In this document: in pieces, positions 8,641-20,016 of the stretch
Layout: each line of letters opens with the position of its first letter
Numbering within the stretch: position 1 is the stretch's first letter
Assembly: GCA_030748895.1 (NCBI GenBank)
Contig: JASMLC010000002.1
Span: forward strand, 1-64,000
Length of the DNA stretch: 64,000 bases
From: Candidatus Poseidoniia archaeon
GTDB taxonomy: Archaea; Thermoplasmatota; Poseidoniia; MGIII; CG-Epi1
Reading direction: 5' to 3'
The notes under the pieces: model-generated
What the model saw: only the letters and a program-made list of their open reading frames with translations
Database searches by the model: none
Told to the model about the DNA's origin: nothing
Made by a program: the position numbers and the translations under genes

Positions 8641-9452
8641 AAGCGCCGCACTTCGCCGAACTGCTCCAGCTCGGCCGCGATGGGCTCAATATCTTCGTCG
8701 GTCACGACCACCGCGGTCCCGAGGTGCGCGACCGTTCCGACCGCGCCCATCGGCAGCTCTGCCAGCGCCGCGGCCGCTTCTGGCGGCATCAGCCCCGTGA
8801 GCTCACTGAAGAGCCGTCCCGCCTTGAGGAAGGCGCGCAACGTCGGCGCCGGCAGCGGGTGGGCGGTCGCGGCGCCGTTGATGATTTCGCGCCAGCCGTC
8901 GTCCCTGAGCACGTCGCCGGTGTTGCGCCCGTCGCCGCAGAGGCAGAGCGCCAGCGCGCCGTCGAGCGACGACGTCACGACGTCGCCGCCCACGCCCGGG
9001 CTGCGGCGCTGCACCAGCCGCGCGCCGGGGCCGTCGCGCAACGCCGCCGCCTGTGCCATCACGTCGCCGAGCCCCGTCGAGTGCTCGATTTCAGACTGGT
9101 GCGCGGCACGCGTCGCCTGCTCGAGGCCGACGCCCAGCTCGAGGCACGCCGCGAGCGCGGTCGCGCCCGACATCCCCATCCCGGCGCCGAGCGGCATTTC
9201 GCGCCGCAGCCAGAAGGTGAGCTTTTCGGGGCGGTCCAGCGCCAGCTCGACCGCGCGTCGCGTGACCGGGTCCTTCACCTTGCGTTTGCCTTCGTAGAAT
9301 GCGATACTGGTACGCTTCGCCGGCTGCCGCTCGAGCGCGGCATAGGCGCCCTGCGGCAGGCAGATGCCGAGGCCGGTCGAGCCGTGCAGCAGCGGGTCGT
9401 CGTCGGGGTGAATGTGGAACAGCAGGCTCAGGTGCGCCGGCGCGAAGCTCAT
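8637..9452 (-). CDS. Archaeal pantoate kinase (GHMP family)
   Basis: 271 residues beginning [16 protein letters not shown], followed by GSTGLGICL, both typical of archaeal pantoate kinase, which makes 4-phosphopantoate for the archaeal CoA pathway. The GHMP ATP-binding motif [14 protein letters not shown] lies near 85-98, and [11 protein letters not shown] follows. ATG 9452 overlaps the TGA of the upstream glycosyltransferase gene (ATGA), so the two are likely translated from one message. The partner phosphopantothenate synthetase is not in this window. Confidence 0.85.
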
Positions 9453-10549
9453 ACGAATCTCGCATAGAGTTCGAGCGTCCGCGTGACGGTGCGCTCCCAC
9501 GTGCGCTCGCGGAGTGCGAAAGCGTGCCCCGCCGCGCCAAGCCGCTCCATCAATCCCGGCGAGTCGAGCAGCCGCTTTACACCTGCGGCCATCTCGCCCG
9601 GTGGCGTCAGCAGTGCGTTCCCTGCGGTCGCTTCACGCACCGACGGCAGCGCGGTCGCCACGACGGGGAGGTGGCAGCCCATGTATTCGAAAATCTTCAG
9701 CGGCGAGAAGCCGTAGTCGCGCGTGGGGTAGGGCGCCAGCCCGAGGTCCGCTTCCGCCAGCAGCCGCGGCACGTCGGCGCGTTCCAGCCGGCCGATATGG
9801 TGCAGGTTAGGCAGCTCCGGCAGCGCCAGCCCGTAGCCGCCGCCAGCGATGACGACCGCCAGCTGCGGCAGCGCGCGCGCCAGCGCCAGCAGCTCGGCGG
9901 TTCCGTGCCACGGCCCCAGCGCTCCGACGAAGACCGCCAGCGGGCCGTCGAGGCCGAGCTGCTCGCGAATGCCGAGCGGCTCGGCTTCCTGCGTGAAGCG
10001 CCCTGACTCGTAGCCGTTCTGGATCGCTGCGAAGCCGGTCGCGTCGGGGTGCCAGTGCGCTGCCTGCTGCCGCAGCGTGCGGCTCACTGCAAAGCCACCG
10101 GTCGCCAGCGACACCTGCTCGCGGCACGACCGCCGCGCCGCTTCGAGGTAGGGCCAGGTCCGCGCCAGCCGGCTCGCCGTAGTCTCCGACCGCAGCCAGT
10201 TATCGTCAATCTGCAGTACCGACGGCACCCCCGCCCGCGCCGCCTCGCGGACGCCGGCCCCGGCGAAGAGGTAGCCGCGGTCGTGCACCAGGTCGAAGCC
10301 GCCCGCACCGAGCAGTTCGCGCACCCGCCCGGCGGCGAGCCGCGTGAATAGCAGTCGCTCTCCCGGCAGGCCACGGTCGGGCACCGGCTCGAGCTGCACG
10401 CCGTTCTCGCTGCGCGCGGTCCCGCAGCGGCAGAGCAGCGTCACCGCGACTCCCTGCGCTGCCAGCCCTTCGGCCAGCGCCAGCTGGTGCAGCGTCTGCC
10501 CCAGCGTGTCCGGCACTCGCACCGACGGCGCGACCATCAGCACCCGCAC
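9449..10549 (-). CDS. GT4-type glycosyltransferase
   Basis: GT-B fold with an N-terminal VRVLMVAPSVRVPDTLGQ and a C-terminal nucleotide-sugar half with FVGALGPWHGTAELL, GLAPYP and FSPLKIFEYMGCHLPVVAT, the E-x7-E type signature. It would transfer a sugar from an activated donor, probably for surface glycans given the adjacent flippase locus. I use GTG 10549 because a TATA-like box lies about 26 nt upstream. An in-frame ATG at 10609 would extend it by 20 residues of low-complexity sequence and overlap the divergent gene. Donor and acceptor are unknown. Confidence 0.82.
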   Translation of the reverse strand: MRVLMVAPSVRVPDTLGQTLHQLALAEGLAAQGVAVTLLCRCGTARSENGVQLEPVPDRGLPGERLLFTRLAAGRVRELLGAGGFDLVHDRGYLFAGAGVREAARAGVPSVLQIDDNWLRSETTASRLARTWPYLEAARRSCREQVSLATGGFAVSRTLRQQAAHWHPDATGFAAIQNGYESGRFTQEAEPLGIREQLGLDGPLAVFVGALGPWHGTAELLALARALPQLAVVIAGGGYGLALPELPNLHHIGRLERADVPRLLAEADLGLAPYPTRDYGFSPLKIFEYMGCHLPVVATALPSVREATAGNALLTPPGEMAAGVKRLLDSPGLMERLGAAGHAFALRERTWERTVTRTLELYARFV

Positions 10550-10571
10550 GTTGCCGGAGGCGGAGCGTCCG

Positions 10572-10579
10572 CTTTTAGG
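10572..10579. promoter_or_regulatory. Possible bidirectional TATA-like element
   Basis: CTTTTAGG lies about 24 nt before GTG 10599 on the plus strand and, read as CCTAAAAG, about 26 nt before GTG 10549 on the minus strand. It is the only A/T-rich motif in the 49-nt gap between the two glycosyltransferase genes. Confidence 0.4.
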
Positions 10580-10598
10580 GGTGTCGCCTTCGGCGAGC

Positions 10599-11699
10599 GT
10601 GGCGCGCATCGGGGTAATCTGCGACCGCGAATTCCTGAAACCGTTCGACCAGCGCGTCTGGAAGGAGGCGCGCACGCTGGCCGACGCGGGCTACGACGTG
10701 GAAATTTTAACGCCCCACACATGCAATGAGGTGCAGGTGGTGGATGGCCTTATGGTGCGCTGCGTCTCGACCGCCGGCCCGCCCGGGGCGACCGCGCTGC
10801 GGCTGCTGCGGCTGGCGCTGCGCGGGCGCTACGATGCGTTCCACTGCCACGAGCTGGACCCGCTACTCTACGCGCTGCTTCTGCGACCGCTGACCGGGAA
10901 GCCGGTGGTATGGGACTGCCACGAGTACATGGTGCCGATGAAGCGTGAGCTGCAGGGGCCGCTGGCAGCGCAACTGACGGCGCTTGCCCTCGAAGTGGCT
11001 GCGCCTCGTGCCAGCGCCATCGTCACGGTTGACAACAGGCTTGGCCGCCGTCTTGCCAGGTATGGCCGGATTCTGGTCCTGCCCAACTATCCCCGCCTGG
11101 CGAACTTTCCATCAGTTTCCAGTTCCAGACCGGACGGTCCCCCGGTGATGCTCTATGTCGGTAGCCTGACCGAGCGCCGTGGTATCTTGGTGATGCTGGA
11201 GGCGTTGCGCCTGCTCCGGAAGTCATTTGACGTCCGACTGATGATTGCCGGTGGATTCTATGACGATAATCTGGAACAGAAATGCCATACGTTCGACCGG
11301 GAGCATGACTTGCAGGTGGAGTGGCTCGGGTGGGTAGACCACCGGGAACTGGCCGGAGTGGTGTCGCAGGCTAGCCTGGGATTGTCCCTGCTCCAGCCCA
11401 CCGAGCGGTACCTGAAGGGACTGCCGACCAAGATTTTCGAATACCTGATTATGGGGCTCCCCGTCCTTTCGGCACGGGGACCGCTGCTGGACCGCCTGAT
11501 TGCGTTGTCTGCCGCCGGCCTGTCAATAGAGTCCACGAGTCCCGCGACTGTGGCGGCTGGTATGCGGGAGCTGCTGTCCCGGGATGACCTGGCAACAATG
11601 GCCTCGAAGGGTCAACACATCGCACGAAAACTATTCACCTGGGATGCACGACAGGGCAAGCTGCCTGAGCTCTACGCGCGACTGCTGCAAAGTTCGTGA
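10599..11699 (+). CDS. GT4-type glycosyltransferase
   Basis: 366 residues starting V-A-R-I-G-V-I-C at GTG 10599. N-terminal half: FDQRVWKEARTLADAGYDVEI and YDAFHCHELDPL, typical of GT4 enzymes. C-terminal half: MLYVGSLTERRGI, WLGWVDHREL and LPTKIFEYLIMGLPVLSA with the usual E-x7-E. The frame is open back to 10344, but that part is antisense to the divergent gene and is low-complexity. The 3' end overlaps the convergent glycosyltransferase by 28 nt. The second half is AT-richer than the first. Confidence 0.85.
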   Translation: MARIGVICDREFLKPFDQRVWKEARTLADAGYDVEILTPHTCNEVQVVDGLMVRCVSTAGPPGATALRLLRLALRGRYDAFHCHELDPLLYALLLRPLTGKPVVWDCHEYMVPMKRELQGPLAAQLTALALEVAAPRASAIVTVDNRLGRRLARYGRILVLPNYPRLANFPSVSSSRPDGPPVMLYVGSLTERRGILVMLEALRLLRKSFDVRLMIAGGFYDDNLEQKCHTFDREHDLQVEWLGWVDHRELAGVVSQASLGLSLLQPTERYLKGLPTKIFEYLIMGLPVLSARGPLLDRLIALSAAGLSIESTSPATVAAGMRELLSRDDLATMASKGQHIARKLFTWDARQGKLPELYARLLQSS

Positions 11700-12736
11700 T
11701 ACAGTGCTTCAACGGTTGCGGCCGCTTCGTCCCAGCGCCAGTTTGCGTCAACGAGCGGCGGCCCCTGCTCCAGCGCCTGTTGCGACAGCCCCCCTTCGGT
11801 GAGCGCGCGAACCAGTGCCTTCGCCAGCGCATCCGCATCACCAGGAGGAAACAGGAGCACCGGCGCGCTGGTAGACGCCCATTGATGGTTGGCCTTGATG
11901 TCGCTGGCAACCAGGACTGCCCCGGAAGCCATTGCTTCGAGAGCCGTCAGCGGGATGCTGTCGGAAAGGGCTGGAGTAACCACCGCCCTCGCCCGGCCCA
12001 TGAGATTTGCCAACTCATTTTCCGGCAAGAGACCGGGAAGGCTGACGTTTGGACCGGCATCTTCTAGCATCTCCGCAACTTCCTCCCGAAGTGGCCCGTT
12101 ACCAGCTAGGATGAATCGTGCCTCTGGGACCTCCCTGATGACCTCGGGAATGGCTCTTGCCAGGCAAAGAGGGTCGTAAACGTCCCGGAAACCACGGCTG
12201 AATAACACCAAGAGTTCCTTGCGACCCGGCTTGAACAAATCACAATCTACTCCAAATATGAGGGAAAGCAAACGTTTCTCGTCAATCTTCCATTTCCGCA
12301 GGTTCTCCACGAGAACCGGCGGAGCAATCACCCGGTCCGCCCTCAGAGCAGTTTTATGGACTATTCTCGACAGTAGCCATGATTCATCCGGAGCTAACAG
12401 GACGTCAGAGCCCAGAGCCGTGACCACCACAGGATGGTGGCCGGCCCTGACCGCATAATTTCCATGATTGACAAGATTGAACCCGTGCACGACTTGCGGA
12501 GCAAAATCATCCAGCATCCTTCGCAACCGGCCGGTGGTCCGGCGCACGGCACTTCCGAGGGTGAAGAGGTAGCGGCGGTCAAGCGGCGGCTCTGGACCAA
12601 AATGGGTTGCACCATCGCCCTCCACGAGCGAAAAGAGCGCCACTTCGTGGCCGTGACCCTTGAGCCACTCCACCCAGCGGATGGTATGGATGCTGCGGGC
12701 GCTGGACACCACGGCAATACGCAGCGAAGAAGTCAC
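11672..12736 (-). CDS. GT4-type glycosyltransferase
   Basis: 354 residues. It starts with SSLRIAVVSSARSIHTIRW and HGHEVALFSL, has the acceptor-domain VHGFNLVNHGNYA, a donor-domain RFILAGNGPLREE, and the signature SIPLTALEAMASGAVLVASD. The start is GTG 12736, about 24 nt from the TATA-like box at 12755-12765. It is part of the surface-glycan island and is transcribed away from the flippase gene, apparently from the same promoter element. Specificity is unknown. Confidence 0.85.
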   Translation of the reverse strand: MTSSLRIAVVSSARSIHTIRWVEWLKGHGHEVALFSLVEGDGATHFGPEPPLDRRYLFTLGSAVRRTTGRLRRMLDDFAPQVVHGFNLVNHGNYAVRAGHHPVVVTALGSDVLLAPDESWLLSRIVHKTALRADRVIAPPVLVENLRKWKIDEKRLLSLIFGVDCDLFKPGRKELLVLFSRGFRDVYDPLCLARAIPEVIREVPEARFILAGNGPLREEVAEMLEDAGPNVSLPGLLPENELANLMGRARAVVTPALSDSIPLTALEAMASGAVLVASDIKANHQWASTSAPVLLFPPGDADALAKALVRALTEGGLSQQALEQGPPLVDANWRWDEAAATVEALYHELCSSRA

Positions 12737-12754
12737 GCCAGTCCATTTCGGACA

Positions 12755-12765
12755 CCGTTATAGCC
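12755..12765. promoter_or_regulatory. Shared divergent TATA element between glycosyltransferase and flippase
   Basis: CCGTTATAGCC is centred about 24 nt from GTG 12736 (minus strand) and about 28 nt from ATG 12788 (plus strand). No other A/T-rich box lies in the 51-nt gap. Confidence 0.45.
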
Positions 12766-12787
12766 TGCTCCCCCCAGTATCTCAACC

Positions 12788-14245
12788 ATGCTGGCCCGCA
12801 AGGTGGCTGTTCTCATCTATGGTCGCGCCATCGCGTTTGGCCTGAGTCTGGCTATTCCAATCGCCCTGACACGCCTGCTCATAAGAGATGAATATGGCAC
12901 TTACCAGCAGCTGGTCCTGGTCTACGTCTCCATACAGGCGTTACTCCTGCTTGGAACGCCCCAGTCCCTGCAATATTTTTTCCCGCGTATGGAGGCCGCA
13001 GAACGGCCGCAGCTAATCCGACAGACCTGGGGATTGCTCGGACTGGCATCGCTGTTCGTCATCCTGCTCTTCGGGGCCGCCCAAGGGATGCTGGAAGTCT
13101 GGGAGCTCTCCCACCCGTTGAAACAGTATCTCCTCCTGCTGGGCGTTTACACCGGGTTGATGCTGCTGGTAACGCCATTCCAGAACCTGCTGGTGCTTGA
13201 AGACCGCGCCAAAGCAGCGATGTGGACCATGATTGGATTCAGCTTGCTGGACCTCGTTGTGCTCCCGCTCGCAGCGTGGCTGAATCCTAGCGCCATGGGG
13301 ATGATTCACGGAATCCTGATTACTGCCACGATTAAGGTCCTGACGGTCCTGGCATACATTTTCCCACGATACTTGCGCCATGGCGTTTCTGGTGCAGCCT
13401 TCATGCGCGAGCAGCTGGCCTATGGCATTCCAGTGGGGCTTACTGCCCTGGTCTATGTTATCAACCTGAACATCGACAAATATCTTGTGGGTATATTCTT
13501 CTCGACGACGATTTTTGCGGTTTATTACATTGGGTCGCTCTGGTTCCCCATTTTCGGCTGGATAACCCAGTCCGCAGCCCAGGTGGTGACGCCCAGAATG
13601 TCTGCTGCGCATAAAGAAGGGCGACTTTCGGATATCGAAAAACTCTATAGCGAAAGCGTGCATACGCTGGCACTGGTATTCCTGCCCTTCGCGGTGGGGC
13701 TGGCTATAATCGCCCAGCCGCTGATTGTTTTCCTGTTCACGGCCGACTATTCTGGTGCCGTGCCTGTCTTCATGATTTACCTGCTCCTGTTGCCAAGCCG
13801 CCCGTTCAGCCTGGGTTGGGTCCTCATGGCTAGTGGACAGACACACTTCCTTTTCCGGCTGGCCGCCTCCATGTCCATAATCAACGTAATCCTCAGTTAT
13901 ACTCTGTTAGTTACGCTGGAAGGCGATATGCGCCTCCTGGGGATTCCCGTTGCTACGGTAGTAGTAGCCTGGCTATCAACGATATTTGTCATGCGCCAGA
14001 CGGCTCGTACCCTGAAAATCCCTCTCTCCCGGCTCTGTCCCTGGAGGGCAATTGCTACTGCAACGCTGGTTTCGTTACTGGCTGGCGTACCCGCAGCATC
14101 ACTCTGGGTCATCGGTCTCAGGGACGAAATCCTGCTGGCTGGTGGCCTGATAGTTTACTGCCTTGCGTTCCTGTGGCTTGCCTCCCGGTTTGGTGTGCTG
14201 GATATCCGGGACCGCAAGACCTTTCAGGCCCTGTGGCCATTCTGA
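12788..14245 (+). CDS. Wzx-like polysaccharide/lipid-linked oligosaccharide flippase
   Basis: 485 residues with about 14 hydrophobic helices of the MOP/polysaccharide-export superfamily. It begins MLARKVAVLIYGRAIAF and has EYGTYQQLVLVY, which matches the conserved E-(Y/F)-G-x-(Y/F) after helix 2 of Wzx proteins, and INLNIDKYLVGIFF in the second half. It would flip a lipid-linked glycan or glycerol-phosphate polymer across the membrane. The next gene, a glycerophosphotransferase, follows after 42 nt on the same strand and is likely in the same operon. Confidence 0.85.
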   Translation: MLARKVAVLIYGRAIAFGLSLAIPIALTRLLIRDEYGTYQQLVLVYVSIQALLLLGTPQSLQYFFPRMEAAERPQLIRQTWGLLGLASLFVILLFGAAQGMLEVWELSHPLKQYLLLLGVYTGLMLLVTPFQNLLVLEDRAKAAMWTMIGFSLLDLVVLPLAAWLNPSAMGMIHGILITATIKVLTVLAYIFPRYLRHGVSGAAFMREQLAYGIPVGLTALVYVINLNIDKYLVGIFFSTTIFAVYYIGSLWFPIFGWITQSAAQVVTPRMSAAHKEGRLSDIEKLYSESVHTLALVFLPFAVGLAIIAQPLIVFLFTADYSGAVPVFMIYLLLLPSRPFSLGWVLMASGQTHFLFRLAASMSIINVILSYTLLVTLEGDMRLLGIPVATVVVAWLSTIFVMRQTARTLKIPLSRLCPWRAIATATLVSLLAGVPAASLWVIGLRDEILLAGGLIVYCLAFLWLASRFGVLDIRDRKTFQALWPF

Positions 14246-14287
14246 AAAAGCAGGATAAACAAGCGACAAAGGAGCGAGGAAGAAAAC

Positions 14288-15433
14288 TTGACCCCTCACC
14301 TGACATTTGAATTATTCCGCTATTTTCTGTTAATACTTGACCGTTTGTTTCCCAAGACTGAAAACCTGCTGCTCTTCCCGGTCCAAGACCGGCAGGAATT
14401 CCGTGATAACATTCGCTTCTTTCATGATTCAGCCTCCCGACACCCTGAATTTGAGTGTGTTATTCTCTGTTACCAGAAAGGAGGCTGGAATGGCGATGAG
14501 GCTATTTTCTTTCATAGTCTGGAGGGGTTGCTGGCCTGGTTGAGGGCCCGAATAATAATCATCCATCATGGCAGGGGTGACATACCATACTCGGATTCAA
14601 TGGATTTCCGGAGGCGGAAATTAATCAACCTATGGCATGGTATCCCGGTCAAGGGAATCGGGTATACTGCCAAGAATGAAGACGAACAAACACTCAAGCA
14701 GCAATTTAAGGTCCCTAGGGCCACAATCTGTAGCTCAGAACTGGACCAGCTGGCAATGCAGGCCTCCTTCAGGCTGCCGCGGCAGAGTGTCTGGACCACG
14801 GGCCTGCCCCGAAATGACATGTTGCTCCAGGCTGAGAATGACCTTGCCCCGGACCTTCGGGAAGAGTCTGCCTGGTTCGAGGCAAAGCTCCAGGGCCGGA
14901 AAATGGTCCTGTACCTGCCCACCTGGAGGGAAGAGCTTGAGGACTTCACAGAATTTACCAGAGAACAATGCCGCAAGCTGGGTGAAATGCTGGAACGACA
15001 TGATGCCGTATTTTGCGTGAAAAAACACCCGAATACACCGACCCTGGATTTTGATGGTATAGAGGTCCTTGATGTCTCTGATTCACCTTGCAGGGAGGTA
15101 GGTACCCTGCTCAGGCACGCCCACATCCTGGTAACCGATTATTCCAGTGCCTGGATTGACTACCTGTTGCTGGACCGCCCCGTTGTCAGCTACTGTTATG
15201 ACTTGGAATCTTATATAGAAAATCGAGGCCTGCTCTATGACTACGAGTCTATTTTCCCCGGAAGACTCAACCAGACTTTTGACTCCTTCCTGGCTGAATT
15301 ACAGAAGGCGTTGAATAATGGAACCCCTGACCGGCAGCAGGTTAGAGCGAAGCGCATTTTCCACAAGTATTGTGACGGGAATAATTCCCGGCGAGTTTGT
15401 GATTACCTGGCCAGCGAGCTCCGGGTTGCCTGA
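14288..15433 (+). CDS. CDP-glycerol glycerophosphotransferase-like protein (TagB/TagF family)
   Basis: 381 residues. The motif KLINLWHGIPVKGIGY contains the conserved His-Gly of the family, followed by TTGLPRND, MVLYLPTWRE, FCVKKHPN and TDYSSAWIDYLLLDRPV, all in the expected order for enzymes that transfer glycerol phosphate or ribitol phosphate from a CDP-alditol. The start is a TTG at 14288, 42 nt after the flippase stop; purine-rich GGAGCGAGGAAGA precedes it and may serve as a ribosome site. It is AT-richer than the core genes. The convergent neighbour is a TagD-like cytidylyltransferase, which could make the donor. Confidence 0.85.
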   Translation: MTPHLTFELFRYFLLILDRLFPKTENLLLFPVQDRQEFRDNIRFFHDSASRHPEFECVILCYQKGGWNGDEAIFFHSLEGLLAWLRARIIIIHHGRGDIPYSDSMDFRRRKLINLWHGIPVKGIGYTAKNEDEQTLKQQFKVPRATICSSELDQLAMQASFRLPRQSVWTTGLPRNDMLLQAENDLAPDLREESAWFEAKLQGRKMVLYLPTWREELEDFTEFTREQCRKLGEMLERHDAVFCVKKHPNTPTLDFDGIEVLDVSDSPCREVGTLLRHAHILVTDYSSAWIDYLLLDRPVVSYCYDLESYIENRGLLYDYESIFPGRLNQTFDSFLAELQKALNNGTPDRQQVRAKRIFHKYCDGNNSRRVCDYLASELRVA

Positions 15434-15436
15434 TAT

Positions 15437-15880
15437 TCAGTCCGTGTCCTCTCCGGGGGCTGACATTTCTCGCTCACGCAACTGGCTGCTACTGATGCCG
15501 GGAGTGTGGGGCAGCATGACTACCTGGATATTCCCTCGGTCGATTGCCGCCCGCCCCATGAAATCGATGTAGGGCTCCTTCTCCCAGTCGGTGCCGTGGA
15601 ACAGGTGTGTAACCCCGTATTCGCGATAGAATGGTTCATGGTCGTTGTTATCGACCAGCACTACATGCTGGGCGATATCCAGAGCCTCGACAGCGGCCAG
15701 TCGCCACTGCTCGTCATACCTGATCGTCTGGGCCTTGTAGCGGGATGCAAAGTTGTCTGCTACCACCGCTACGATGAGGGCATCGCATTCCCCTGATGCC
15801 CGACGAATTATGTTTACGTGCCCCTCATGACAGTAATCGAAGACCCCTGCCAGGTATCCTGTCCGCACGTAGTCAGCCAT
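15437..15880 (-). CDS. TagD-like glycerol-3-phosphate cytidylyltransferase
   Basis: 147 residues of the HxGH nucleotidyltransferase fold: GVFDYCHEGHVNII near 12-25, RYDEQWRLAAVEAL, GTDWEKEPY and MLPHTPGISSSQLRE. The last segment matches the RTEGISTT-type motif of TagD better than that of FAD synthetase RibL, which is the main alternative in archaea. It would make CDP-glycerol (or a related CDP-polyol) from CTP, supplying the adjacent TagF-like enzyme. ATG 15880 is about 25 nt from the TATA box at 15901-15909. Confidence 0.8.
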   Translation of the reverse strand: MADYVRTGYLAGVFDYCHEGHVNIIRRASGECDALIVAVVADNFASRYKAQTIRYDEQWRLAAVEALDIAQHVVLVDNNDHEPFYREYGVTHLFHGTDWEKEPYIDFMGRAAIDRGNIQVVMLPHTPGISSSQLREREMSAPGEDTD

Positions 15881-15900
15881 ACTGGTGGAAGCTGGAACTC

Positions 15901-15909
15901 GTTTATAGC
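15901..15909 (-). promoter_or_regulatory. TATA box for the TagD-like gene
   Basis: GCTATAAAC on the minus strand, centred about 25 nt before the ATG at 15880. Confidence 0.55.
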
Positions 15910-15917
15910 AGGGGCGG

Positions 15918-17429
15918 TCAGGCCAGCTCGCCGCGGATGAACATCAGGTAGCGCTGCTCCTCGTCGGCTTCCCAGGGGTGCTGCCCGAGGTTGTACTGGT
16001 AGGCGATGTTGAGGCTGCCGTCGGGGGCGATGACTGCTTCGAAGAAGTCGTGCAGCGGGTGCAGGTCGTCGGCCGCCGCCTCCGCCTCGCTGGAAGTGTG
16101 CAGTGGTTGCGGGTCGGCCTTGAGGAACTCCAGCTGCTCGCCCACTTGCAGGTCGTCGGCGATGGCGCCGTAGAGGTACCAGCGGTCGCCGGAGGTGTGC
16201 TCACCGTGGGTGCCGTTGCCCTCGTTTGCGTAGTAGGCGAAGCCGAGCCGGTTTTCGGCGCCGAGGTCGATGGTGGGGTAGAGGAAGACCGCCTCGCGCG
16301 GGGTGACGTCCCAGTATTCCCATGTCACGCCGTAGTCGTCGCTGCGGCTGAGGTAGAGCGTCCCGGCCGCCCGGCCCCCCTCCGGGGACTCCTGCCAGGC
16401 GACCATCACGGTGCCGTTCTCCCCCGCCGCTATCCACGGATAGCCTTCGGGGTGCGAGCCCTCCAGCGGGCCGATTGTGACCGGCTCGGCCCAGTTGGCG
16501 CCCCAGTCGTCCGAGACCCATACCTTGACTCCGCCGCTGCCGCCGTTGTTTGCCTCCTGTACGATGTAGACGTGGGGTCCATCGGTCTCGGCAGCGATGT
16601 GCGCCCAGCCTCCCTCGATGACCCGTCCCTGGTCGAAGACTACCTGATCGCCGACGGTCGTGCCGCGGTAGTACCAGTAGCGGCCGACGCCGCTGGTTCC
16701 GTCGGTGAGCGGGATGCCCGGCACCGAGACGCCGTTGTTACCGAGGTAATGCACGACGCCGTCGCCGTGCGCGGTGACCCACGGCCGGTCGTCGGCGGTG
16801 GTAGATTGCAGCCGCTGACTGTTGGCGTGCGCGTTGCCGCCGTCGTCCCAGATGTGCAGCCAGTTGTCCTCGAGCGTCGTGTCGACAAAGTATACTCGCC
16901 CGTTGGCATCGACGCCGATGTCGCCCTCGTCACCGGGATACTGCGAGCCGAAATCGGCCGTCCCCCAGTCGTTCGGTGGCCCCCACGTTTCGCCGCCATC
17001 CTGCGAGACGAAGAACCACGAGGCGTAGTAGTCCCACGAGGTCTGCGCGCCGCCCGGCCACGGGAAGCCGCAGACGAACGGCCCCGGCCCGGGTGCCCCT
17101 CCCTCGCCGCCGCCAGGCCCACCATTGGGGCCGGACCAGCGCAGGTCCTTGTGTGCAGTGTAGTAGAGGTTGCCCTGCTGGTCGACGGCAATGCTCGGCT
17201 CGTAGCCGATGGCGTATTCCGGGTAAATCTGGCCGTTATCCTCGTCAACGCACTCGGACGCGCGCGGCAGCCAGACCGGCTCGCCCCACGTAAGGTAGTC
17301 GCCGCCGGGACTCCCCGGGCCACCCGGCAGTGGCTCCGCTTCACGCTCGTGCGTCGCGACCCAGTAGCCGCTTCCGGCGAGCAATAGCGCGACCGCGATG
17401 GCGAAGCCTCGCTCGGCAAGCTCCTGCAT
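15918..17429 (-). CDS. Secreted BNR/sialidase-like beta-propeller protein
   Basis: 503 residues with an N-terminal hydrophobic segment (about 7-22) acting as signal or anchor, a Pro/Gly linker and a propeller region. Three Asp-box-like repeats are visible: SQDGGETWG, SDDWGANWA and SDDYGVTWEYW. Such repeats occur in sialidases but also in many non-catalytic propellers, and I see no complete set of sialidase catalytic residues. It probably acts outside the cell. ATG 17429 lies about 25 nt from a TATA-like TGTTAATAG at 17451-17459; the longer open frame to 17693 crosses this promoter. Confidence 0.7.
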   Translation of the reverse strand: MQELAERGFAIAVALLLAGSGYWVATHEREAEPLPGGPGSPGGDYLTWGEPVWLPRASECVDEDNGQIYPEYAIGYEPSIAVDQQGNLYYTAHKDLRWSGPNGGPGGGEGGAPGPGPFVCGFPWPGGAQTSWDYYASWFFVSQDGGETWGPPNDWGTADFGSQYPGDEGDIGVDANGRVYFVDTTLEDNWLHIWDDGGNAHANSQRLQSTTADDRPWVTAHGDGVVHYLGNNGVSVPGIPLTDGTSGVGRYWYYRGTTVGDQVVFDQGRVIEGGWAHIAAETDGPHVYIVQEANNGGSGGVKVWVSDDWGANWAEPVTIGPLEGSHPEGYPWIAAGENGTVMVAWQESPEGGRAAGTLYLSRSDDYGVTWEYWDVTPREAVFLYPTIDLGAENRLGFAYYANEGNGTHGEHTSGDRWYLYGAIADDLQVGEQLEFLKADPQPLHTSSEAEAAADDLHPLHDFFEAVIAPDGSLNIAYQYNLGQHPWEADEEQRYLMFIRGELA

Positions 17430-17450
17430 TATCTGCTTAGAATCCTGCCC

Positions 17451-17459
17451 GCTATTAAC
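17451..17459 (-). promoter_or_regulatory. TATA-like box for the BNR protein gene
   Basis: GTTAATAGC on the minus strand, centred about 25 nt before the ATG at 17429. Confidence 0.5.
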
Positions 17460-17480
17460 ACCTACTCTAAGGGAAGTAAC

Positions 17481-17489
17481 TTTATACGC
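17481..17489 (+). promoter_or_regulatory. TATA-like box upstream of the acidic Tudor-like protein
   Basis: TTTATACGC would place transcription start near 17510. The first in-frame ATG of the downstream gene is at 17578, so this gene would have a leader of about 65 nt, unlike most others here. Confidence 0.4.
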
Positions 17490-17577
17490 CTCAGGAGATG
17501 CCCGCCGCCCGTCCCACGCGTTCTCCCGGCGACGTACTGCCGGAGGGTGCTGGCTGGCGGCGGCAGAGCAGGCGCAC

Positions 17578-20016
17578 ATGGTACAACCCCAGCGATACGG
17601 CAGCATCCGCGAATTCCTCGACAATCTGCCGCGCCAGCCCTGCATCTGGCAGCCGGAGAACCAGAACATCTGCGTCACCTGCCTGCGCATCAACGAGCCG
17701 GTCGCGCGAGTCTGCTCGGTCTGGACTCAGGCACTCGGCGACGCGCCGCTGGAAGAGCTTGATTTCGAGGAGGAAATGCGCTCGCTCCCGGCGGTCGAGA
17801 AGGTCGCCGAAAGCCCCGCCACACCGGGGCTGGTCGAGATAGACGTCGTCGGCGACTGGGACATGGAGCCGGCCACGGCCGCCCCCGTCGCGGCAGAGCC
17901 GGTCGTGGCCGAGCCCGCTGCCGAGCCATCCATCGCGGTAGTCGATATTGATACGGTCTCGCCGACAGAGCCTGCGGCTGCCGAAGAGCCCGCTGCGGAA
18001 GAGGCGGAGCCGGCGGAAGCTGGAGACGCGGAGGAGGACGAGCCGGTTGAGGTCGAAGCTGTCGCAGCCGAGGCGGTTGAAGTGGTTGAAGACGACGATA
18101 CCGAGGCGGTCGCAGCCGCGGCAGCTCCCGTCGAGGAAAGCGAAGCTGGCGATGCTGAAGCTGGTGAAGATGCTGCGGTCCCGGAAGCGGTCGAAGTCGA
18201 AGCGGCGGAAGCCGACGAGGAAGTTGCGGAAGCCGCGCCGGCCGAGACCGACGCGGCTTCTGCCGACGCGCCGCCTGCGGGCACGTGGGGCAGCCGCCTG
18301 AAGTTCTGGGGCGGCGCTGCGGATGCCCCGGATGACGATACCGGTGACGAGCCTGTCGATGATACTGGCGAGCCTGCGGAGGATGCCGACGAACCCGCGC
18401 CTGCGGAAGATGCCGACGAACCCGCGCCTGCGGAGGAGGCCGACGAACCCGCGCCTGCGGAGGAGGCCGACGCCGAGGACGAATCCGAGGAGGAGCTGCC
18501 GACGGAGCCGGAGTCCGAAGCGCTACCCTCTGCCCCTTCGGACGCGCCGTTCGCCGTCGGTGAGGTGGTGAACCACGGCGTCTACGGTGGCGGCACGGTG
18601 CGCGAGTGCATCATGACCGGGAACCAGTGGTCGGTGCACATCGATTTCAACACTGGCCCCCGCACCATCCTGAGCCATTTCCTCGAAGGCAAAAGCGACG
18701 CTGAGGAGCTCGAACCGGCCGACGATTCGACTTGGGGTCGCGTCGGTGCTGGCCCGGAACCGGAGGACGCGCCCGAATCCCCGTCAGGCGACGATACGGT
18801 GGCCGGTGAGGACGAGGATGCTGGCGATGACGGCGATGAATCTCCGCCGGCCGCCGAACCCGTAGTGGAAGCTGCCGAGCCCGTAGAGGTGGAGGCAGTG
18901 GCTGTTGAAGCGGTCGCGGAGCCAGACGCGGAAGTCGCGCCGGTTGAAGTGGAGGCAGTAGAGGTCGCTGAGGAGGAAGCGGCTGAAGCGGAACCGGCCG
19001 AAGCCGAGTCGGTGGAGGCTGTGGCCGTCGAAGCGGTCGCGGAGCCCGAGCCCGAGCCGGAACCCGAGCCCGCCGTGGCCGAACCGATTGAAGTTGATGC
19101 GGAACCAGAGGCCGAAGCTGAGGAGGCTGAAGCCGTAACCGAGCCGGTCGTGGAGGAGGCGCCGGCCAACGATGCCGTCGAAGTTACTGAGGCGGAACCG
19201 GAGCCGGAGCCTGAGGCGAGCGAGGCCGAGCCCGAAGCGGCCGCTGACGCCGCTGCCGAGGTAGTCGAGGTTGAGGCTACTGATACTGCCGAGGCCGCCG
19301 ACGATGCTGTTGAAGCTGCCGAAACTGAAGTAGCCGAGCCGATTGAAGCCGAAGCGGAACCGCTCGCGGCCGAGCCCGAGCCCGAAACGCCCGAGCTCGA
19401 GGCGTCCGCGGAGGCAGCTTCCGGCGAGAATCCATTCCAGCCGGGAGTGGAGGTGCATCACGAGTTCTTCGGGACTGGCGTCGTGCAGGAGAGCCGGCCC
19501 AAGGACGAGCACTGGCGGCTCGAGGTGGAGTTCAGCGACGGGGCGCAGCGGACGCTGCTCTCGTCATTCGTCACGCTGCCCGGGGAAGAGGCCGACGCGG
19601 AAGCTGCCGAGCCGGAGACGCCGGTGACGGCGGAGGAGCCGGAGGAAGCAGAGCCCGCCGAGGTCGCGCCGACAGTGACAGAGGAAGCGGAAGCAGAGCC
19701 GGAGCCCGAGCCGGAGCCCGAGCCAGCGGAAGTTGAACCTGAACCCGAACCGGAGCCCGTAGTAGCTGCGCCTGCCGATGCCGAGCCGGTCGCGGAGGCG
19801 CCGACGCCCGTCGAGCCAGTAATCATCGAGGCCGAGATGGTTGACGAGCCTCCCGTCGCAACGCCGGTCATCGAGCCGCAGGCGGTTCCGGAGGCCGACG
19901 ACGAGGTGCCGCTGCTGGCGGAGCCGGTGGTGGTCGACTTGGGCGACCCCGGCGAGGAGAGCGACCCCGAGGTCTCGGCTGTCGGCTCGCTCGAGGCGAA
20001 GCGGCGCAAAGGGTAA
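17578..20016 (+). CDS. Large acidic low-complexity protein with two Tudor-like modules
   Basis: 812 residues. The N-terminus (about 1-60) has four Cys in CIWQPENQNICVTCLRI and VCSVW, possibly a zinc-binding site. The bulk is Glu/Ala/Pro/Val-rich and extremely acidic. Two related modules of about 50 residues stand out, FAVGEVVNHGVYGGGTVRE near 320-370 and FQPGVEVHHEFFGTGVVQE near 620-670, each ending in an aromatic F(or L)xxF pattern; both resemble the SH3/Tudor-like C-terminal domain of UvrD/PcrA helicases. That domain binds proteins such as RNA polymerase. The C-terminus is basic (AKRRKG). Function is unknown; the layout suggests a disordered scaffold carrying two binding modules. Confidence 0.7.
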   Translation: MVQPQRYGSIREFLDNLPRQPCIWQPENQNICVTCLRINEPVARVCSVWTQALGDAPLEELDFEEEMRSLPAVEKVAESPATPGLVEIDVVGDWDMEPATAAPVAAEPVVAEPAAEPSIAVVDIDTVSPTEPAAAEEPAAEEAEPAEAGDAEEDEPVEVEAVAAEAVEVVEDDDTEAVAAAAAPVEESEAGDAEAGEDAAVPEAVEVEAAEADEEVAEAAPAETDAASADAPPAGTWGSRLKFWGGAADAPDDDTGDEPVDDTGEPAEDADEPAPAEDADEPAPAEEADEPAPAEEADAEDESEEELPTEPESEALPSAPSDAPFAVGEVVNHGVYGGGTVRECIMTGNQWSVHIDFNTGPRTILSHFLEGKSDAEELEPADDSTWGRVGAGPEPEDAPESPSGDDTVAGEDEDAGDDGDESPPAAEPVVEAAEPVEVEAVAVEAVAEPDAEVAPVEVEAVEVAEEEAAEAEPAEAESVEAVAVEAVAEPEPEPEPEPAVAEPIEVDAEPEAEAEEAEAVTEPVVEEAPANDAVEVTEAEPEPEPEASEAEPEAAADAAAEVVEVEATDTAEAADDAVEAAETEVAEPIEAEAEPLAAEPEPETPELEASAEAASGENPFQPGVEVHHEFFGTGVVQESRPKDEHWRLEVEFSDGAQRTLLSSFVTLPGEEADAEAAEPETPVTAEEPEEAEPAEVAPTVTEEAEAEPEPEPEPEPAEVEPEPEPEPVVAAPADAEPVAEAPTPVEPVIIEAEMVDEPPVATPVIEPQAVPEADDEVPLLAEPVVVDLGDPGEESDPEVSAVGSLEAKRRKG
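18382..18471 (+). repeat. In-frame 27-bp tandem repeat
   Basis: Three nearly identical 27-bp units at 18382-18408, 18409-18435 and 18436-18462 plus a partial fourth encode DADEPAPAE-type nonapeptides within the acidic linker. The near-identity at the DNA level indicates recent slippage or unequal exchange. Confidence 0.85.

Follow-up and report, generated by a model that had tools for sequence, protein, structure and literature searches.

Teichoic-like glycans that bear phosphate are characteristic of bacterial envelopes, and the TagF/TarL polymerases have an extra N-terminal domain and a length of 560-730 aa. Characterised members of the PF04464 family mostly move glycerol or ribitol phosphate (PMC11666461); its single-domain glycerophosphotransferases, i.e. 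TagB/TarB, TarF and capsule transition transferases such as Cps7A, have about 380 aa, a GT-B fold, and the motifs WHG, PTxR, H and DYSS. In archaea, homologues of teichoic acid genes and high wall phosphate have been reported in Methanobrevibacter ruminantium (PMC2812497), where PF04464-type genes likewise go with a proposed wall glycopolymer (PMC2812497, PMC5816558). Here, we analyzed a gene set of this kind in an uncultured marine archaeon of marine group III (MGIII), which lies in the first 64 kb (hereafter the window) of contig JASMLC010000002.1, from an assembly of 1.41 Mb that is 97% complete. An earlier note on this DNA had called such a system poorly described in archaea, which is fair, although M. 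ruminantium shows that it is not unprecedented (PMC2812497); that organism is however a methanogen with a pseudomurein wall. A literature search, mostly outside subscription journals, found no description of such a cassette in MGIII. Homologues of teichoic acid genes are thus already known in archaea, and what is new is a divergent cytidylyltransferase in a host apparently restricted to sn-glycerol-1-phosphate, together with a module that occupies different sites in two MGIII genera.

The cassette consists of four genes, coding for a cytidylyltransferase, a GT4 glycosyltransferase, a TagF-like phosphotransferase and a flippase. We consider it probable that this set was acquired horizontally, and that its products build a lipid-linked surface glycan with phosphodiester-linked polyol phosphate and bring it out of the cell. 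The four genes and the two resident glycosyltransferases that adjoin them are the following:

12788-14245, + strand: Wzx/MurJ-superfamily lipid-linked oligosaccharide flippase (PF13440, 6e-14, 52.4 bits; PF03023, 1.5e-10; 13 hydrophobic segments); orthologues in both MGIII genera, also where the TagF-like and TagD-like genes (the Tag-like pair) are missing
14288-15433, + strand: putative TagF/TagB/TarF-like GT-B CDP-polyol:glycan phosphotransferase of 381 aa with one catalytic domain, read from a TTG start (PF04464, 184.8 bits)
15437-15880, - strand: CTP-dependent cytidylyltransferase, divergent TagD-like, 147 aa, proposed to make the CDP-polyol (PF01467, 5e-12; H18-E-G-H21, G96-T-D98-W99, H125-T-P-G-I-S-S-S)
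11672-12736, - strand: GT4 glycosyltransferase, cassette member (PF13692, 5e-21; 42% homologue inside the G014 operon described below)
10344-11699 (open reading frame, start uncertain), + strand: GT4 glycosyltransferase resident at the site, possibly adding to the same glycan (PF13692, 1e-15; same site in G003, G010, G016 and G020 without the cassette)
9449-10675, - strand: GT4 glycosyltransferase resident at the site (PF13439, 9e-14; G003 and G010 keep it at this site)

The flippase, TagF/TagB-like and TagD-like frames of the earlier note are real and correctly placed, as coordinates and Pfam matches confirmed. All three GT4 genes that it had listed with them are indeed adjacent, but just one (11672-12736) is part of the conserved set; the remaining two are found at the site in relatives that lack it. 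The TagD-like and TagF-like genes lie on opposite strands, facing each other end to end, while the cassette GT4 is oriented divergently to the flippase. The latter scores above the PF13440 cut-off (23 bits), and its 13 hydrophobic segments agree with the 12-14 or so transmembrane helices expected of the family.

The TagF-like protein, encoded by the single PF04464 gene of the whole genome (family cut-off 22.1 bits), retains the family catalytic residues on alignment, a point on which the earlier note had staked its reading. In the alignment, H117 falls on the catalytic-site His that was replaced in the solved TagF H444N and TarL H300N chains, and H117, G118, K122, P211, T212, R214, H247, D284, S286, S287 and D305 are invariant in 26 homologues. 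The predicted model (pLDDT 92.6) has its best fold matches in TarL with CDP-ribitol and in TagF. However, the scores against TarF (82.1 bits), TarB (45.1 bits) and TarL (88.3 bits) are all far under the NCBIfam equivalog cut-offs (550, 500 and 1000 bits, respectively), and the protein aligns to the C-terminal part of TarL/TagF alone, which is not the architecture of those polymerases. The data support its assignment as a putative CDP-activated-polyol phosphotransferase of primase/TarF size. Like TagB/TarB, TarF and Cps7A, it stands in a surface-glycan cluster beside a partner cytidylyltransferase; unlike TagB/TarB/TarF it is archaeal, export would go by a Wzx-type flippase, and no peptidoglycan-linked context was identified.

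The identity of the partner enzyme is less straightforward. The HEGH and PHTPGISSS segments of the earlier note, the latter its ground for preferring TagD over the FAD synthetase RibL, are both present; the protein is indeed not RibL, but it is not TagD proper either. With TagD/TarD it shares the HxGH and GxDW motifs, the GISS/T region and the fold (TMt about 0.85). Yet the TagD motif RTxGISTT, whose Arg113 is essential (PMC8262930), reads HTPGISSS in the window, and the His in place of Arg113 is invariant in the five MGIII copies; the RYVDEVI dimer motif is lost, with LDIAQHVVLV in its position; extra residues lie between DWE and the last strand; and the host makes sn-glycerol-1-phosphate. 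The score against the glycerol-3-phosphate cytidylyltransferase equivalog TIGR01518 is 50.7 bits, well below the cut-off of 165.4. In our tree, RibL (100/100), TagD (99/98) and the PepM-linked domains form one clade each, and the MGIII cytidylyltransferase falls in none of them. An assignment as TagD proper is not supported. RibL was rejected, given that the two lie apart in the best tree (96/89) and that the genome has its own RibL gene elsewhere (L031:1216-1653), beside a RibB-like gene and with orthologues of at least 61% identity in the other MGIII loci compared. A viral origin was rejected as well: no relative was confirmed in viral contigs, and phage matches are distant (30-34%) and unannotated.

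The MGIII cytidylyltransferase instead joins, on a long branch, a group annotated as 'adenylyltransferase/cytidyltransferase family' (97/92). A relationship to this exopolysaccharide-linked sister clade is weakly favoured by the tree, not proven. Bacterial proteins of that name from exopolysaccharide clusters, such as those on L. plantarum and C. futsaii plasmids, are of the type that gives the best-supported tree relatives, the plasmid examples themselves standing outside the tree. The plasmid genes adjoin CDP-glycerol glycerophosphotransferase genes in exopolysaccharide clusters, in one case together with a flippase. Identity to the MGIII protein is however about 30-38%, some relatives pair with LicD instead, and we found no characterised member. 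The predicted model (pLDDT 88) is closest in fold to TarD (2b7l), the Fom1 cytidylyltransferase (CyTase) domain (5x3d) and TagD (1coz), with HldC about equal. The Fom1 domain is similar in fold (E 6.5e-9, TMt 0.84) and has a PYTPGISS-like motif, but is fused to PepM and belongs to a different clade, whereas MGIII has no detectable PepM.

We then compared the locus across 21 genomes of the MGIII family, which cover two genera and of which some are incomplete. The PF04464 protein is present in five of them (G000, G017 and G019 in genus 1; G004 and G014 in genus 2), so the gene set is conserved in relatives, as the reading of the earlier note required. A close cytidylyltransferase homologue, i.e. 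with at least 60% identity, occurs in exactly the same five genomes and never apart from it, and the two genes are adjacent or one gene apart in all five carriers. In G014 (L033) the cassette forms a compact operon on one strand with overlapping or abutting genes: cytidylyltransferase (8935-9387), GT4 (9356-10408), TagF-like (10398-11546) and flippase (11548-13017). In G004 the Tag-like pair is separated by a flavodoxin gene alone. Cassette orthologues compared between closely related genomes have dN/dS values of 0.05-0.38, which indicates purifying selection and, together with the exact co-occurrence, argues against a chance assembly. The TagF-like gene of G019 (L036 6140-7283) is broken across two frames, either by an assembly error or in a decayed copy.

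The Tag-like pair of G004 and the G014 cassette share a chromosomal site, next to the same DsrE-like and iron-repressor-like genes. The genus 1 site is a different one, where the set has a resident GT4 on one side and a BNR-repeat protein on the other. The site itself is assembled in G016, G020, G003 and G010: at the genus 1 site G016 and G020 carry just a flippase orthologue (48-51%), and no flippase is found at the corresponding site in the genus 2 genomes G003 and G010. In G001 the flippase is paired with the cassette GT4 in the absence of the Tag-like pair. The flippase, with or without the GT4, thus occurs without the Tag-like pair in G001, G016 and G020. Flippase+GT4 and the Tag-like pair are therefore modules that can come apart, and the pair itself comes and goes as a whole. 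Adjoining the genus 2 site, even where the pair is missing, is a gene for a lipoprotein that matches PhnD/Phosphonate-bd (and Transferrin) in Pfam, with ABC transporter-like genes nearby (L033:6532-7719, L034:699-1871, L185:6259-8367).

The AT-richness that the earlier note had reported for the polymerase and flippase genes holds for all four cassette genes, whose GC content at third codon positions is 0.59-0.68 versus 0.77-0.89 in the neighbours. Its conclusion that these genes were transferred is likely to be right, but AT-richness alone is weak evidence, because the cassette is AT-richer than its neighbours also in genus 2, where genes mostly have 32-41% GC. Transfer from bacteria is made likely rather by the PF04464 tree and by what relatives carry at the same site. 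In the tree, built on 58 proteins, the MGIII sequences form one clade that falls within a bacterial group (98% SH-aLRT) and away from the other Thermoplasmatota PF04464 proteins. The bacterial sequences were retrieved with the MGIII alignment, a sampling that favours nesting among bacteria; despite this, the separation from sister-class archaea is clear. Bacterial PF04464 relatives often adjoin cytidylyltransferases.

Based on these comparisons, the following pathway can be proposed. The cytidylyltransferase would use CTP to activate a small phosphorylated alcohol as CDP-X. The TagF/TarF-like enzyme, as its well-conserved active site suggests, would then move X-phosphate from CDP-X to a GT4-built glycan on a membrane lipid, as a single unit or a short chain. 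Finally, the Wzx-type protein may, judging from its family, flip the product outward for attachment to a surface protein or lipid. The invariant catalytic motifs, the TarL/TagF folds, the co-occurrence in five genomes, the G014 operon and the cytidylyltransferase neighbours in bacteria all speak for this scheme, so that a phosphodiester-decorated, flippase-exported glycan is strongly supported as architecture. Of the CDP-glycerol-derived exported polymer proposed in the earlier note, what stands is that phosphotransferase, cytidylyltransferase and flippase form one set; a polymer finds little backing in one single-domain PF04464 protein, and glycerol is inferred only. Several observations weigh against the scheme, or at least against its glycerol version. 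No acceptor, ligase or anchor was identified, the TagO/TagA linkage unit not having been searched for genome-wide. Approximately unbiased (AU) tests leave alternative positions of the cytidylyltransferase unrejected (p 0.18-0.36; TagD clade p 0.21). The Fom1 CyTase, solved with HEP-CMP bound, is as near in fold as TagD, and with Arg113 replaced, RYVDEVI gone and a position outside the TagD clade, the alcohol may not be glycerol.

Glycerol is nevertheless the most likely alcohol, with moderate support. The genome encodes an archaeal sn-glycerol-1-phosphate dehydrogenase (G1PDH; 437.9 bits, cut-off 413), which is present in 12 of the 21 genomes of the family; in none of the 21 were GpsA, FGGY glycerol kinase or GlpA/D detected. 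The bacterial sn-glycerol-3-phosphate supply of wall teichoic acid was thus not found. As G1PDH is the sole source of glycerol phosphate seen in the genome, any glycerol phosphate that is used should have the sn-1 configuration, the mirror image of that in bacterial wall teichoic acid, unless lipid breakdown or an unrecognised enzyme supplies glycerol-3-phosphate. Bacterial Cps3B and Cps7B accept both Gro1P and Gro3P, and Cps7D polymerises CDP-1-Gro in vitro (PMC8262930); bacteria do have glycerol-1-phosphate polymers as lipoteichoic acid, made by another route (PMC7086022). We tentatively put forward, as a possibility still open to considerable doubt, that the MGIII surface glycan bears phosphodiester-linked sn-glycerol-1-phosphate derived from CDP-sn-1-glycerol, the cytidylyltransferase having been adapted (Arg to His) to the archaeal enantiomer.

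The same architecture could also serve a CDP-activated group other than glycerol phosphate; the glycan might then be decorated with, for instance, a phosphonate, phosphocholine/phosphoethanolamine or some other phospho-alcohol. The His at the Arg113 position and the Fom1-like PxTPGISS segment point in this direction, as do related archaeal cytidylyltransferases that adjoin LicD-family transferases (L147, L151) and the G106 TagF-like gene, which lies about 3 kb from a hydroxyethylphosphonate-type locus that combines a Cyt-PepM fusion with what are likely a decarboxylase and an Fe-alcohol dehydrogenase. However, no PEP mutase (PepM) above cut-off was found in the 21 MGIII genomes, which leaves no self-made phosphonate by the known route, and the MGIII partner belongs to PF04464, with its mostly glycerol- or ribitol-phosphate-moving members, not to LicD; we therefore regard a non-glycerol group as rather unlikely. 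A true teichoic-acid-like poly(glycerol phosphate), with the TagF-like protein as a processive polymerase, appears less probable still. The PF04464 family, the TagF/TarL fold and the presence of a cytidylyltransferase and a flippase in the set would fit it, but the protein has 381 aa in one domain and lacks the additional N-terminal part of TagF/TarL, a single PF04464 gene leaves no separate primase and polymerase, and nothing indicates polymerisation or chain length. Moreover, the gene set has a Wzx-type flippase in place of a TagGH-type ABC exporter, for which the rest of the genome was not searched. A long polymer is therefore weakly supported. Least credible, and in our view very improbable, is that the cytidylyltransferase is RibL or another housekeeping nucleotidyltransferase that neighbours the TagF-like gene by accident. 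Telling small HxGH nucleotidyltransferases from one another is difficult, and the AU test leaves an MGIII+RibL clade formally unrejected (p 0.18), the clustering that the earlier note had named as fatal to its reading; the best tree does not show it, a separate RibL exists, and the TagD-like gene is missing wherever the TagF-like gene is missing.

A conserved, transferred cassette in planktonic archaea bears on the surface that MGIII shows to viruses and grazers and on the spending of scarce phosphate. MGIII apparently has the sn-glycerol-1-phosphate route only, and the reverse enzyme pattern has been reported in the sister order Poseidoniales (marine group II; PMC6461757), so that the cassette offers a direct way to see whether CDP-glycerol chemistry can work on the archaeal enantiomer in a cell. 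If the sn-1 reading is true, this would be teichoic-acid-like chemistry of archaeal hand.

Related loci were observed elsewhere in the archaea analyzed. In the other Thermoplasmatota genome mentioned above (G106, L152 7057-14573), the Cyt-PepM fusion (PEP mutase, 413 bits), likely phosphonopyruvate decarboxylase and likely iron alcohol dehydrogenase near the TagF-like gene may constitute an archaeal phosphonate-glycan locus. In family f3 of the same class, TagF-like genes lie at a common site (L150, L155, L156, L157). Three of them are paired with a gene of sugar-nucleotidyltransferase type, the one at L150 with a TagD-like gene and one for asparagine synthase, so that the cytidylyltransferase partner appears to be exchangeable. 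At L147 and L151, including the MGIII genome G001, cytidylyltransferase relatives stand beside LicD-family and flippase genes, which suggests an alternative phosphoalcohol-transfer module. Within the window, the cassette is adjoined by a gene for a BNR-repeat-like putative exported protein (15918-17393), of which genus 2 genomes lacking the cassette have homologues (41-43%) at this site. It is followed by a very long, strongly acidic low-complexity open reading frame rich in E, A, V and P (17398-20016), whose conservation in relatives is limited to short segments.

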